A stretch of 51,759 nucleotides of DNA from Candidatus Binatia bacterium (GTDB taxonomy: Bacteria > Vulcanimicrobiota > Vulcanimicrobiia > Vulcanimicrobiales > Vulcanimicrobiaceae), in NCBI GenBank assembly GCA_035541935.1, contig DATKMJ010000006.1:1-51759 (forward strand), written 5' to 3'. Both the position numbers and the translations under genes were made by a program. The notes under the pieces are model-generated. The model did no database searches. It had not been told where the DNA came from and worked only from the letters and a program-made list of their open reading frames with translations. Position 1 is the first letter of the stretch; each line of letters starts with the position of its first letter. Shown one piece after another: positions 18,528 through 51,759 of this stretch.

Positions 18528-19136
18528 ATGCAAAAAGACGCGCTCGCCGCGGCTCGACGGCTCTTTTCCGGCGATCGCCGCCGCCCGCCGGAGAGCGACG
18601 TCATCGAGACGCTGTTGCGTTTCGGGCGCGGCGCGCTCGCATACGCCGCGCGCAGTCACGTCCGCGTGATGCTCCTGCGCCGCGGCGAGCTCTATCGCGA
18701 GGCGTCGCTCGCGCTCGCGCGCTTGGGCATCGACGTCGACGCGTGGCCCGCGCCGCCGGCCGGCCTCTTCGTCGTCGAGGAGCGCGCGCTCTACTTGCGT
18801 TCTCGCAGCCCCATGACCGTCGCACACGAGTTCGGCCACGCCCTCGACTGCGCGCTCGGCGGCGGCGTCTACCGCAGCGGCATCGATCCCGCGGTCCGCT
18901 CGCTCTTCGCCAACGCGAGCTGCTTCATCACGCCGTACGCGGCGACGGGCGTCGACGAATACTTCGCCGAGTCGCTGCGCGCGTACGTGGAAGCCAACGA
19001 TCCGGCGTCACCGTGGCCGCGCGCCACGCGCGCGCGCCTCCGCCACAACGACCCCGGGATGCACGAGTTCATCGAGCTGCTCTTCGAGCACGAGTTCGGC
19101 GGCCGCCCCCACGCCGACGAGGTCGCCTCAATTTAA
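18528..19136 (+). CDS. Anthrax lethal-factor-like (ATLF-type) zinc metallopeptidase
   Basis: A 202-residue protein with the zinc site HEFGH at residues 100-104 and a downstream EYFAE at 144-148 supplying the likely third ligand, the arrangement of gluzincins of the lethal-factor fold. Between them lies a loop with CFITPYAATGVDEYF. There is no signal peptide, so it is probably cytosolic or exported by another route. Its substrate is unknown; related short domains are found in toxins and housekeeping proteins alike. It is divergent from the lipoprotein gene, with 87 bases between them. No strong ribosome binding site is visible at ATG 18528. Confidence 0.78.
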   Translation: MQKDALAAARRLFSGDRRRPPESDVIETLLRFGRGALAYAARSHVRVMLLRRGELYREASLALARLGIDVDAWPAPPAGLFVVEERALYLRSRSPMTVAHEFGHALDCALGGGVYRSGIDPAVRSLFANASCFITPYAATGVDEYFAESLRAYVEANDPASPWPRATRARLRHNDPGMHEFIELLFEHEFGGRPHADEVASI

Positions 19137-19140
19137 TGCA

Positions 19141-19196
19141 GTGTCATCCTGAGCTTGTCGAAGGACGGAGCTTGTCGAAGGACGGAGCTTGTCGAG
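19141..19196 (-). repeat. Dispersed repeat, inverted orientation, one full and two partial copies
   Basis: GTGTCATCCTGAGCTTGTCG-AAGG is followed by two further GGAGCTTGTCGA units at 17-base spacing. This is the only copy in the window pointing to the minus strand. It ends 10 bases before the GIY-YIG start codon and begins 4 bases after the peptidase gene. Confidence 0.8.
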
Positions 19197-19206
19197 AACG
19201 GAACGC

Positions 19207-19632
19207 GTGAAGGCGTATTACGTGTATATGGTGCGGTGCGCCGACGGAAAATTCTACGTCGGGATTAGCAACGATCCCGAACGTCGCATCGCCCAGCACA
19301 ATCTCGGTCATGACCCGGAAAGCTACACGTTTACACGCCGGCCGGTCGAGCTGGTTCATTGTTCCGACTTCAAGGAAGTCGACGATGCGATTCGCTGGGA
19401 AAAGCAGCTAAAAGGCTGGTCACGCGCCAAGAAGATCGCGTTGATCGCGGGCGATTGGAAGACGATCGTTCGTCTCTCTAATGAGAAGAAATCCGTCCTT
19501 CGACAGGCTCAGGATGACACAGCATCTTCCTCAGCGCCTGCGCGCAGCGCAGCCCTGAGCGAGCGCAGCGAGTCGAAGGGTCAGGATGACACAGCATCTT
19601 CCTCAGCGCCTGCGCGCGCAGCGCAGCCCTGA
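19207..19632 (+). CDS. GIY-YIG domain nuclease with a repeat-encoded C-terminal tail
   Basis: I place the start at GTG 19207 (VKAYYVYMVRCADGKFYVG), since the TTG upstream at 19189 lies in repeat DNA. The product is about 141 residues. The first ~90 form a single GIY-YIG domain: YYVYMVRC and FYVGISNDPERRIAQHN carry the two signature strands and the arginine, and AIRWEKQLKGWSRAKKIALI the catalytic glutamate region. These small nucleases cleave DNA; the role of stand-alone ones is mostly unknown. From SVLRQAQDD onward the last ~45 residues are translated from two tandem copies of the dispersed repeat, so the original stop codon has probably been displaced. The gene is bracketed by repeats in opposite orientation. 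Confidence 0.82.
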   Translation: MKAYYVYMVRCADGKFYVGISNDPERRIAQHNLGHDPESYTFTRRPVELVHCSDFKEVDDAIRWEKQLKGWSRAKKIALIAGDWKTIVRLSNEKKSVLRQAQDDTASSSAPARSAALSERSESKGQDDTASSSAPARAAQP

Positions 19633-19693
19633 GCGAGCGCAGCGAGTCGAAGGGTCAGGATGACACGGGTCCTTCGACGGGCTCAGGATGACA
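19495..19693 (+). repeat. Cluster of dispersed repeats with ~80-base tandem units
   Basis: GTCCTTCGACAGGCTCAGG-ATGACACAG is followed by two near-identical tandem units (CATCTTCCTCAGCGCCTGCG ... CCCTGAGCGAGCG, CAGCGAGTCGAAGGGTCAGG). These units combine an inverted half with an inserted hairpin and a forward half. A final simple copy ends at 19693, just after the cytochrome stop region begins. It overlaps the 3' end of the GIY-YIG gene. Confidence 0.8.
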
Positions 19694-19699
19694 AAAAAA

Positions 19700-20131
19700 C
19701 TACTTGACGCTTTGGACGGTCGAGACGCTGACGCCCGGGGCGCTATTCTTCCACGAGCTTCGGATGTAGGTGATGGCGGCGGCGATCTGCTCGTCGGAGA
19801 GCAGACCCTTCCAGCGCGGCATGATGCCGCTGTAGGTTTGACCGTTGACGACGAGCCGGCCGTCGAGACCGTCTTTCACGATCGCGATAGCGGCGACCGG
19901 ATCGCCGATGACGATCGGATTTTCGGCGAGCGGCGGAAAGGCGCCGGGAATTCCTTTGCCGTCGACTTGATGGCAGCTCGAGCAGTTCGTCAAGTAGACG
20001 ACGGCGCCGTCGCTCGCCGACGCCGGGTTCTGCTCGGCCGCCGCGGAGACGGCGGCGGCGGTGGTCGCGTGCGACTCCTTCGCGCACGCGGTTAAAACGA
20101 GCGCGAGCACAGACGCTGCGGCCCTTCTCAT
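19700..20131 (-). CDS. Class I cytochrome c, lipoprotein
   Basis: A 143-residue protein from ATG 20131, with GAGGAGG five to six bases upstream. The N-terminus is a lipoprotein signal (LVLTAC, cysteine 16). The haem site is CSSCH at residues 50-54, and Met104 in SGIMPRW is the likely sixth ligand, followed by the helix LSDEQIAAAITYIRSSW typical of cytochrome c. It should be a membrane-tethered, one-haem electron carrier on the outer face of the cytoplasmic membrane. It overlaps the rodA stop by 4 bases (ATGA), so it is translationally coupled to a cell-shape gene, an odd partnership. In actinobacteria a transpeptidase gene sits in this place. Confidence 0.92.
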   Translation of the reverse strand: MRRAAASVLALVLTACAKESHATTAAAVSAAAEQNPASASDGAVVYLTNCSSCHQVDGKGIPGAFPPLAENPIVIGDPVAAIAIVKDGLDGRLVVNGQTYSGIMPRWKGLLSDEQIAAAITYIRSSWKNSAPGVSVSTVQSVK

Positions 20132-24545: not shown

Positions 24546-24610
24546 TCCTTCGACAGGCTCAGGATGACACCAGGGGGCTCAGGATGACACCGGGGGGCTC
24601 AGGATGACGC
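24546..24610 (+). repeat. Dispersed repeat, one full and two half copies
   Basis: TCCTTCGACAGGCTCAGG-ATGACACC is followed by two GGGGGCTCAGGATGAC half copies. It fills the gap between fmt (stop 24613) and rsmB (start 24517). Confidence 0.8.
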
Positions 24611-24612
24611 CA

Positions 24613-40003: not shown

Positions 40004-40057
40004 GTCCTTCGACACGAGCCCCTGCGCGAAGCGCAGGGGCTTCGGTCAGGATGACAC
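40004..40057 (+). repeat. Dispersed repeat, variant with a 10-base-pair hairpin insert
   Basis: GTCCTTCGAC and GGTCAGGATGACAC are separated by a perfect hairpin GCCCCTGCGC, loop GAA, GCGCAGGGGC (40018-40040). It lies 3 bases after the WXXGXW-type gene and could also terminate its transcript. Confidence 0.75.
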
Positions 40058-48877: not shown

Positions 48878-51759
48878 GTGCTCGCCGCCGGCGTCGTGCT
48901 GCCGTCGCTGCACGCGCTTTCGTGGCGAAACATCGGGCCGGCCGTCGCGGGGGGAAGAACGTCGGGCGTGGCGGGCACCGACCTCGACCCAAATCTTTAC
49001 TACTTCGGCGGCGCCGATGGCGGCGTTTGGAAGACGAACAACGGCGGCCTGACGTGGCAAGACGTCTGGCCTGCCGACGCGGTGGGCGCGATCGGCGCGA
49101 TCGCGATCGACCCGCGCGATCGGGCGACCGTCTGGGTAGGAACCGGCGAGCCGAACCTGCGCAACGACATCTCGTACGGCGACGGAATTTGGGTGACGCA
49201 CGACGGCGGCGCGCATTGGAACAACCTCGGGCTGCGCGACACGTGGGCGATCGCGCAGGTCGTCGTCGATCCCAAGAACCCGCGGCGCGTCTACGTCGCG
49301 GCGGTAGGAAATCCATATCGCGACAGCGCGTCGCGCGGCATCTATCGCACGACCGACGGCGGGCGCACCTGGCAGCGCACGCTCTATCTCGGCCCCTCGA
49401 GCGGAGCGTCCGATATCGCGATCGATCCGCGCGATCCCAACGTTCTCTTTGCCGGCGTCTGGCAGTTTCGCCGCGTGCCGTGGAGTTTCAGCAGCGGGGG
49501 GCCGCTCGACGGAATCTACAAGTCCACCGACGGTGGTTCGACCTGGAAGCGTCTGCGCGGCAACGGATTGCCGGCCGGCGAGACGGGCCGGATCGGTCTG
49601 GGCGTCGCGAGCAACGGCACGCGCGTCTACGCGGTGATTCAATCGAACGAGGGCGTGATGTGGCGGTCGGACGACGGCGGCGCGCATTGGCGCCTCATGA
49701 CGCGCGACACGCTCGTCAACCAGCGGCCGTTCTACATGAGCCGGCTCGCCGTGGATCCCTCAAACGAGAACCACGTTTTCTTCTCGTCCGAAGATTTGAT
49801 CGAGACGCGCGACGGGGGCAAGACCTACGAGGACGTCGAGGGCGCGGTCCATCAGGATCATCACGGCTTGTGGATCTCGCGTGACGGGCGGCGCATCATC
49901 GAAGCGAACGACGGCGGGGCGCCGATCTCGATCGACGGCGGAAAGACCTGGGACTGGCGCTACAACGTCGTCCTCGCGCAGATCTATCGGATCGGATACG
50001 ATTTCGAAAACCCGTACCACGTCTGCGGCGGAATTCAAGACAACGACTCCTACTGCGGGCCGTCGGACTCGCTCAATCGGTACGGCATCACGAACTCCGA
50101 TTGGCGCGCGGTCGGAAACGACGGAGATGGCTCGTGGGTCTGGCCCCAGCCCAACGATCCGACGCAGATCTGGAACGTCGGCGTCAACGAGCTCAACGGG
50201 CAGCTCGGCATCTTCGACCTGCACTCGCGCCAGAACTACGACGTATCGCCCGACGTGACCGACACGAACGGGCGCGCGCTCGCGGGATTGCCCTATCGCT
50301 CGAACTGGGAAGCACCGATCGCCTTTCGACTACCCTTCGACTCCGCTCAGGGTGACACGGGGAGGCCCTTCGACTCCGCTCAGTCCTTCGACTCCGCTCA
50401 GGATGACACGGGGAGGCCCTTCGACTCCGCTCAGGATGACACGGGGATGTCCGGTCAGCGTGGCACGTTGATCGGCTACTTCGGTGCGAACGTACTATTC
50501 GAGACGGACGATCGAGGACGCACCTGGACGCCGATCAGTCCCGACCTGACGCGCAACGACCCGACCAAGCAGCGCGTCGCGGGCGGACCGATCAATACCG
50601 ACGTCTCGGGAGCGGAGTTCTACGACACGATCTTCGACATCGCGCCCTCGCGGCTCGATGCGAAACGCATCTGGGTGGGCACCGACGATGGGTTGGTCCA
50701 GCTAACCTCGGACGGCGGGGCGCATTGGCAAAACGTCACGCCGTCCGAGGTCGCACCATGGGGGCGCGTCGACACGGTCGAGGCGTCGAGCGCGGACGCG
50801 CGGCGGGCGTACGTCGCGATCGACCGGCACGTGATGGGCGATCCGCATCCGTACATTCTCGTTACCGACGATTCCGGAGCGACCTGGCGCGCTATCGTGA
50901 CCGGATTGCCGCGCGATCAATACGTGCACGTCGTTCGCGAGGATCCGGTGAATCCTAACTTGCTCTATGCGGGGCTCGAACAGGGCGTGTGGTTTTCGGT
51001 CGATCGCGGCGCGCACTGGCAGAGCCTGCGTCTGAACATGCCCGCGACGGCGGTGCACGACATCCGGATTCAGTCGCAGCGCCACGACGTGCTCGTCGCG
51101 ACGCACGGCCGCGGCTTCTGGATTCTCGACGACGCCGGCCCGCTGAGCGCGTTGGCCGCAGCGAATTCGCCCGCGCCGACGACGCTCTTTCCGCCGCGAA
51201 CCGCCTACACGTGGTATCGCTGGTGGAGCGACTACTATCCGACGCACCCCGACGAGTGCTGCGTGAGCGCGGGGATGTATGCCGGCGAAGATCCGCCGGA
51301 CGGCGCAATCATCACGTACTACTTGGCGCGCAGCGAGCCCGCGAGCATCAGCGTGACCGACGCCGACGGACGGCAGGTTCGCTGTTTCGGTGTTCCGGGC
51401 AACGCGGGTCTGCATCGCGTGACATGGGATTTGACCGAGACGCCGCCCGTCGAATGGCTGCGCGCGCGCGATTGGAATCGCGGCGACGACGGCCCGACCG
51501 TCGTGCCGGGTACCTACCGCGTGACGCTCGCGTTATCCAGGTCCAACCTCTTCATGCCGCTCACCGTGCAGCCCGATCCGCGCGCGTCGTGGACGCAAGC
51601 GCAATACGTCGAACGCTACAAGTTCGTCAAACAGCTCGACGACGAACTCTCGCAGATCGACGTCGCGCTCAATCGGTTAGATGCCCTTCGACAAGCTCAG
51701 GGTGACACAGATAATATCCGCGCGATGTTGACGTCGGGGGTTGTGAACTCCGAGGATGA
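48878..51759 (+). CDS. BNR/VPS10-like beta-propeller exo-hydrolase-type protein (C-terminus cut by window)
   Basis: A frame of at least 960 codons from GTG 48878, the only start candidate, which runs past the window end. The start lies 16 bases after the Rieske gene. A hydrophobic stretch at the N-terminus (LAAGVVLPSLHA) may be a signal peptide. Repeated BNR/Asp-box units follow: GGVWKTNNGGLTWQD, GIYRTTDGGRTWQR, GIYKSTDGGSTWKRL, VMWRSDDGGAHWRL, GKTWDWRYN, LFETDDRGRTWTP and WFSVDRGAHWQSL, as in sortilin-like/VPS10 propellers annotated as glycosyl hydrolases. Catalytic activity is not shown. Dispersed repeats enter the frame at 50331-50445 (four copies) and at 51684-51709 without breaking it. 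The TGA at 51757 is in another frame. Confidence 0.85.
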   Translation, partial: MLAAGVVLPSLHALSWRNIGPAVAGGRTSGVAGTDLDPNLYYFGGADGGVWKTNNGGLTWQDVWPADAVGAIGAIAIDPRDRATVWVGTGEPNLRNDISYGDGIWVTHDGGAHWNNLGLRDTWAIAQVVVDPKNPRRVYVAAVGNPYRDSASRGIYRTTDGGRTWQRTLYLGPSSGASDIAIDPRDPNVLFAGVWQFRRVPWSFSSGGPLDGIYKSTDGGSTWKRLRGNGLPAGETGRIGLGVASNGTRVYAVIQSNEGVMWRSDDGGAHWRLMTRDTLVNQRPFYMSRLAVDPSNENHVFFSSEDLIETRDGGKTYEDVEGAVHQDHHGLWISRDGRRIIEANDGGAPISIDGGKTWDWRYNVVLAQIYRIGYDFENPYHVCGGIQDNDSYCGPSDSLNRYGITNSDWRAVGNDGDGSWVWPQPNDPTQIWNVGVNELNGQLGIFDLHSRQNYDVSPDVTDTNGRALAGLPYRSNWEAPIAFRLPFDSAQGDTGRPFDSAQSFDSAQDDTGRPFDSAQDDTGMSGQRGTLIGYFGANVLFETDDRGRTWTPISPDLTRNDPTKQRVAGGPINTDVSGAEFYDTIFDIAPSRLDAKRIWVGTDDGLVQLTSDGGAHWQNVTPSEVAPWGRVDTVEASSADARRAYVAIDRHVMGDPHPYILVTDDSGATWRAIVTGLPRDQYVHVVREDPVNPNLLYAGLEQGVWFSVDRGAHWQSLRLNMPATAVHDIRIQSQRHDVLVATHGRGFWILDDAGPLSALAAANSPAPTTLFPPRTAYTWYRWWSDYYPTHPDECCVSAGMYAGEDPPDGAIITYYLARSEPASISVTDADGRQVRCFGVPGNAGLHRVTWDLTETPPVEWLRARDWNRGDDGPTVVPGTYRVTLALSRSNLFMPLTVQPDPRASWTQAQYVERYKFVKQLDDELSQIDVALNRLDALRQAQGDTDNIRAMLTSGVVNSED
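50331..50445 (+). repeat. Four copies of the dispersed repeat, in frame inside the propeller gene
   Basis: Copies begin near 50333, 50366, 50384 and 50417, spaced 33, 18 and 33 bases, all multiples of three. Each encodes PFDSAQ(G/D)DTG-like residues. The propeller motif resumes at GTLIGYFGANVLF. Confidence 0.85.
51684..51709 (+). repeat. Dispersed repeat, in frame inside the propeller gene
   Basis: CCCTTCGACAAGCTCAGG-GTGACACA is translated as LRQAQGDT within a helical segment (NRLDALRQAQGDTDN). Confidence 0.8.

Follow-up and report, generated by a model that had tools for sequence, protein, structure and literature searches.

REPs have been sorted into the GTAG and CGTC super-families (Di Nocera, De Gregorio, Rocco 2013, PMC3733652). 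The CGTC repeats, which include the CGTC-1 elements of Neisseriae, i.e., dRS3, as well as RPE-4 and RPE-6 of Rickettsia, were reported in that paper to be unassociated with transposase genes and to have no dedicated transposase; GIY-YIG proteins are not mentioned there. Another system, Ssn, is reported to comprise GIY-YIG nucleases of wide distribution, which cleave single-stranded DNA at repeat sequences (Chenal et al. 2025, Nature Communications). It was reportedly found first in Neisseria meningitidis, where it acts on a repeat that occurs in hundreds of copies, and reportedly modulates natural transformation. The pairing of a nuclease with a repeat is therefore treated here as already known from the Ssn work in Neisseria. 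In the literature searched, which did not cover the Ssn paper, no paper linking GIY-YIG to REPs was found. Of other GIY-YIG enzymes, Slx1 cuts branched DNA, and the homing endonucleases spread by a break followed by repair copying.

The repeat-gene-repeat unit

The window, i.e., the whole stretch of DNA analysed, comprises 51,759 nucleotides of contig DATKMJ010000006.1 of Candidatus Binatia bacterium. It contains a GIY-YIG nuclease gene located between inverted copies of a dispersed hairpin repeat, with the following features.

19142..19693, no strand: whole unit, repeat-gene-repeat, located between two convergent genes, 18528-19136 on the + strand and a minus-strand gene ending near 19700
19142..19165, + strand: upstream hairpin repeat, T-GTCA-TCCT-GAG-CTTG-TCGA-AGGA, i.e., TGTCATCCTGAGCTTGTCGAAGGA; exact match of GTCATCCTGAGCNNGTCGAAGGA at 19143-19165
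19151..19195, + strand: tandem truncated 17-nt copies, GAGCTTGTCGAAGGACG x2.6, prolonging the upstream hairpin (TRF, 100% matches)
19207..19632, + strand: GIY-YIG nuclease gene, likely GTG start at 19207, stop at 19632; TTG at 19189 is a possible start
19496..19519, - strand: downstream hairpin repeat 1, in the opposite orientation to the upstream one (exact match at 19496-19518; inverted pair I1, 34 nt, 94% complementary)
19553..19580, + strand: tag-less long-loop hairpin variant, CCCT-GAG-...-TCGA-AGGG, within the downstream cluster (sequence inspection; direct repeat D2)
19627..19654, + strand: second copy of the tag-less long-loop variant (direct repeat D2, 94%)
19670..19693, - strand: downstream hairpin repeat 2, its TGACA being the outer end of the unit (exact match at 19670-19692; inverted pair I2, 25 nt, 92%)

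The tag end of the upstream hairpin faces away from the gene, the start of which lies about 11 nt from the repeat, and the final ~45 codons of the gene (19495-19632) fall within the downstream cluster of repeats. The 2.41-Mb genome has only 15 exact copies of the upstream-repeat subtype, three of which bracket this gene, so the arrangement is far beyond chance. The first-pass annotation, made from the sequence alone, had described a gene bracketed by inverted repeat copies, starting 10 bases from one side and with its last ~45 codons inside the other, and all of this held (19143-19165 is inverted with respect to 19496-19518 and 19670-19692). It had also described the upstream repeat as the only copy in one orientation, called minus there, and the downstream ones as all plus. 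This held for the canonical copies, of which the upstream one is the sole representative of its orientation in the window, but "all plus" was slightly too strong because the tag-less variants at 19553-19580 and 19627-19654 share the upstream orientation.

The product of 19207-19632 matches Pfam PF01541 (E = 2e-17), the only domain found in it; no HUH/Y1 tyrosine transposase was found in the protein. The match to the clade profile (162 bits) is confined to 19207-19494, which corresponds to the domain and a clade-specific part. Residues Y7, Y17, G19, R27, H31, and E65 are invariant among 47 homologues, and the criteria of the GIY-YIG superfamily, i.e., conserved Tyr, Tyr, Arg, His/Tyr, and Glu together with the fold, are met. 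The AF2 model (pLDDT 94.9) has a GIY-YIG fold, with UPF0213 and Slx1 as the closest folds. A homologue from Neisseria gonorrhoeae is 37% identical over 68 residues, and only distant GIY-YIG matches, every one below 60% identity, were found in phage records. In four loci of relatives (L035, L036, L039, and L046) the nuclease frame ends with a repeat-encoded PSTGSG, and the GGATGA of the repeat provides the stop codon.

A second gene of the same clade is present in this genome (G000:C33:32195-32482). It has the same inverted bracket, made of a different repeat subtype, GTCACCCTGAGCGAAGTCGAAGGG, on both sides; this subtype and its close variants have 97 copies in the genome. No repeats are located near the UPF0213-like gene or UvrC of the same genome. 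Another member of the genus, G002, also has two clade genes, L243 and L228.

Several other features of the window are worth mentioning. The gene 18528-19136, adjoining the unit, has no match in Pfam or NCBIfam and belongs to an unknown but conserved family, found in most genomes of the genus with 75-82% DNA identity; a typical zinc-metallopeptidase motif, HEFGH, is present in its product. At 40005-40055 there is a hairpin variant with an extended loop, GTCCTTCGACACGAGCCCCTGCGCGAAGCGCAGGGGCTTCGGTCAGGATGACA, the inner stem of which is perfect, and at 50333-50450 a tandem cluster including the CCCT-type subtype, the one bracketing the other clade gene of the genome. A separate dispersed repeat of ~130-150 bp, at 2368-2520, has 80-87% matches in contigs C16, C18, C33 (twice), C37, and C65 of this genome and in genomes G002, G004, and G011.

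Structure of the hairpins

The repeats are imperfect hairpins of the architecture TGTCA + NNNT-GAG-C(loop of 2-3 nt, sometimes with an extra stem)G-TCGA-AN'N'N'; the window type thus has a single inner pair, set off from the 4-bp stem by a GAG/TCGA internal loop. Copies were searched for with the pattern GTCA-4nt-GAG-loop-TCGA-4nt, in which pairing was not required; in 176 of the 229 copies the 4-nt arms pair along their whole length, against a mean of 20 in shuffles. When one copy per locus is taken (66 rows), five pairs covary, including the inner C-G/G-C; at pair 10-27, for example, CG occurs 20 times, GC 21, TA 20, and AT three times. The base preceding GTCA, left free by the search, is T in 62 of the 66 homologous copies, and the central segment is of 4 or 5 nt in 190/213. 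Variation includes a CCTCA tag in Methylobacterium and an extra stem inside the loop in L037 and L040. CGTC-tagged REPs have a short unpaired tail, mostly CCA; no clear tail consensus was seen among the 66 copies. Folding of the window-type hairpin is not supported by its nearest-neighbour energy, -1.2 kcal/mol, no better than that of shuffles. It is possible, by inference, that the internal GAG/TCGA forms tandem G-A pairs, which the nearest-neighbour model may not reward.

Association of the repeats with one clade of nuclease genes

Among 60 genomes of the genus and phylum, 19 sampled clade genes were compared with 14 other GIY-YIG genes. All 19 have repeats within 300 bp, in one orientation upstream and in the opposite one downstream, whereas none of the 14 others in the same genomes, the UPF0213-like ones included, has a repeat nearby (Fisher p = 1e-9). 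The repeat subtype varies among loci but is usually the same on both sides of a given gene.

A further survey of the genomes of 84,980 species yielded 80 loci, mostly of Bacteroidota, the remaining taxa being Eremiobacterota/Vulcanimicrobiota, Ignavibacteriota, Kiritimatiellota, Peregrinibacteriota-type Patescibacteria, and Chloroflexota. A hairpin is located within 300 bp of the gene in 70/80 of them, and the density of repeats falls from 5.7/kb in the first 200 bp to 1.9/kb in the next 200 bp and to ~0.1/kb or less past 1.4 kb. The inverted arrangement known from the window, with copies on both sides, is seen in 42 loci; in many Bacteroidota loci, head-to-head pairs lie instead on one or each side of the gene. 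Chance was rejected as the source of the association on the grounds of this fall-off and of the 19/19 versus 0/14 comparison. An association with GIY-YIG genes in general was also rejected, UPF0213-like and UvrC genes being without repeats.

The median repeat load of the 60 genomes is 41 in those with a clade gene and 0 in those without one (p = 1e-8); outside the genus the relation between gene and load has p = 6e-5. These p-values overstate independence because the genomes are kin. Five genomes of the genus, three of them incomplete assemblies and two 95% complete, have 14-82 repeats and no gene, so the repeats can outlive the gene or do not need it to be kept. The tree of the clade proteins is poorly resolved (11/95 branches starred), and coevolution of protein and stem type is therefore not concluded.

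Presence and absence of the unit

In 13 same-genus genomes the unit is absent and the convergent flanking genes are directly adjacent. At the same spot G002 has repeats without the nuclease gene, and G010 has a unit in the opposite orientation. The 20 units of the relatives occupy ~12 genomic neighbourhoods, a figure that is approximate because some flanks are short. Single repeats have been gained or lost as well, at an orthologous spacer matching 24546-24612 of the window. In Azospirillum lipoferum 4B a unit is located between sufB and sufC, where it is missing in three relatives. Target-site duplications, by which insertion sequences and MITEs are recognised, remain unresolved at the base level because the empty sites are too diverged, and vertical inheritance plus loss could possibly account for part of the distribution.

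The first-pass annotation had proposed checks for enrichment of the repeat near GIY-YIG genes, for inverted orientation, and for presence or absence of the unit at syntenic loci. Enrichment held for one clade, in related and unrelated genomes, inverted orientation recurred in the relatives and in about half of the other loci, and presence/absence held in the genus and independently in Azospirillum. Lack of enrichment and chance orientation at unrelated genes, named there as refuting, were examined and did not refute the proposal.

CGTC-REPs at related GIY-YIG genes

Canonical CGTC-REPs bracket related GIY-YIG genes in N. gonorrhoeae (dRS3-type), A. lipoferum, Aeromonas, Shinella, Neorhizobium, Rhizobium CIAT894, and Sphingobium. 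The flanking hairpins of Sinorhizobium meliloti are tagged CCTC, Novosphingobium has a related inverted pair at its GIY-YIG gene, and in Photobacterium and Rhizobium tumorigenes hairpins are present downstream only. None of these repeats was found at the related gene of Sphingomonas paeninsulae.

Interpretation and alternatives

The clade-specific association, the orientation rule, the covarying stem, the presence/absence of whole units and single repeats, and the multiple insertion sites are shown. They are likely, with a probability of about 0.72, to reflect a mobile unit of a REPtron-like type, with a URI/UPF0213-like single-domain GIY-YIG nuclease gene lying between inverted copies of the hairpins that its product would recognise; recognition, cutting, and mobilisation are all inferred. 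The nuclease may bind the hairpin in single-stranded DNA, of the lagging strand or imported by transformation, and cut near the tag, after which host repair or recombination would copy hairpins, and occasionally the whole unit, to new intergenic sites. Moving together with the sites that its product recognises, the gene would persist in the way that RAYT genes persist alongside GTAG-REPs. The copying route is unexplained, since GIY-YIG enzymes are not known to have strand-transfer chemistry. The earlier description of a minimal mobile module with inverted terminal repeats is supported, although these are REP-type hairpins and not classical terminal inverted repeats. Its analogy with REPs and Y1 transposases, by which the nuclease could mobilise or maintain the repeats, is in keeping with their being tagged hairpins; a mobilising activity is inferred only.

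The strongest alternative, somewhat less likely than not, is an Ssn-type role in genome maintenance or control of DNA uptake, in which the nuclease would cut single-stranded DNA at cognate repeats, thus limiting or shaping transformation and recombination, and the repeats would be beneficial to the host and not mobile. It is favoured by the reported action of N. meningitidis Ssn on an abundant repeat, with modulation of natural transformation, and by the N. gonorrhoeae homologue of the window protein (37% identity), which is bracketed by dRS3-type repeats. Alone, it does not account for the position of the gene between inverted copies of its sites, for the spread of units over many places, or for the lack of entire units at loci that are syntenic. 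It is compatible with the REPtron-like reading. A homing-type selfish gene, copied in by repair of breaks at repeats from a unit, with the dispersed repeats as targets used mainly by the gene, would agree with the many sites at which units occur and with their flanks, whose sequence is that of the dispersed targets. It is unlikely, since there are just one or two units per genome as opposed to tens to hundreds of repeats, and covariation of the hairpin suggests recognition of a structure and not of a fixed duplex target.

Coincidence, i.e., intergenic hot spots tolerating both repeats and small GIY-YIG genes, gains some support from the spot in the window, which took repeats without the gene in G002 and an opposite-orientation unit in G010. 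It can be practically dismissed in view of the repeat-free other GIY-YIG genes, the fixed inverted orientation, the occurrence in several phyla, and the density fall-off. The hairpins could also serve only the GIY-YIG transcript, as transcription terminators or elements of mRNA stability, since they are located just 3' of the gene and REPs can serve as RNA elements (PMC3733652). This has very little to recommend it given the inverted upstream copies, the genome-wide dispersal far from GIY-YIG genes, and the lack of a T-tract after the window hairpins; a terminator-only role was rejected because copies flank both sides and occur far away.

A bolder extension of the REPtron-like reading would make GIY-YIG nucleases the long-missing partner of the entire CGTC/TGTC-tagged REP superfamily in many phyla, and thus a second, chemically distinct class of REPtrons. 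The evidence falls a little short of making this the better bet. If it is true, a cut-only enzyme without transposase chemistry spreads hairpin repeats together with its own gene.

Comparison with known systems

The apparent additions of this analysis are the covarying TGTCA hairpin of the clade, the rule that its genes are bracketed, the finding that units are present at some loci and absent at syntenic ones, and a proposed link to CGTC-REPs. Ssn is likewise reported to pair a small GIY-YIG protein with its own dispersed repeats, in hundreds of copies, and to be widely distributed with varying specificities, but the clade of Eremiobacterota, Bacteroidota, and others has a differently built hairpin, and its cleavage activity is only inferred. 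The fold and the active-site motifs are common to the window protein, UPF0213/YhbQ/YazA (PDB 1zg2, 1ywl), and Slx1; unlike the clade genes, the UPF0213-like genes of the same genomes are without repeats.

The CGTC-tagged REPs resemble the window type in having an unpaired 5' CGTC/TGTC/CCTC tag, a short hairpin, and a 4-5 nt loop, and in being intergenic, dispersed, and often arranged as head-to-head dimers. Their perfect stem of 8-9 bp is not matched by the window type, with its imperfect stem and invariant GAG/TCGA internal loop, but it is present in the proteobacterial copies beside related genes. The clade offers, in many phyla, a candidate partner for the widespread CGTC-type REPs reported as transposase-less in 2013. 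The covarying stems predict which nuclease matches which repeat and, if the inferred cutting is real, could yield a set of hairpin-specific nucleases.

The REPtrons of the REP/RAYT type likewise consist of tagged imperfect hairpins with inverted copies bracketing the gene, non-autonomous copies scattered through the genome, a gene number of one or a few per genome, and subtypes each with its own gene, and the RAYT criterion of a gene flanked by inverted REPs is met in all 19 relatives. The two systems differ in their components: an HUH/Y1 transposase and a GTAG tag in REP/RAYT, a GIY-YIG nuclease and a TGTCA tag in the system of the window.
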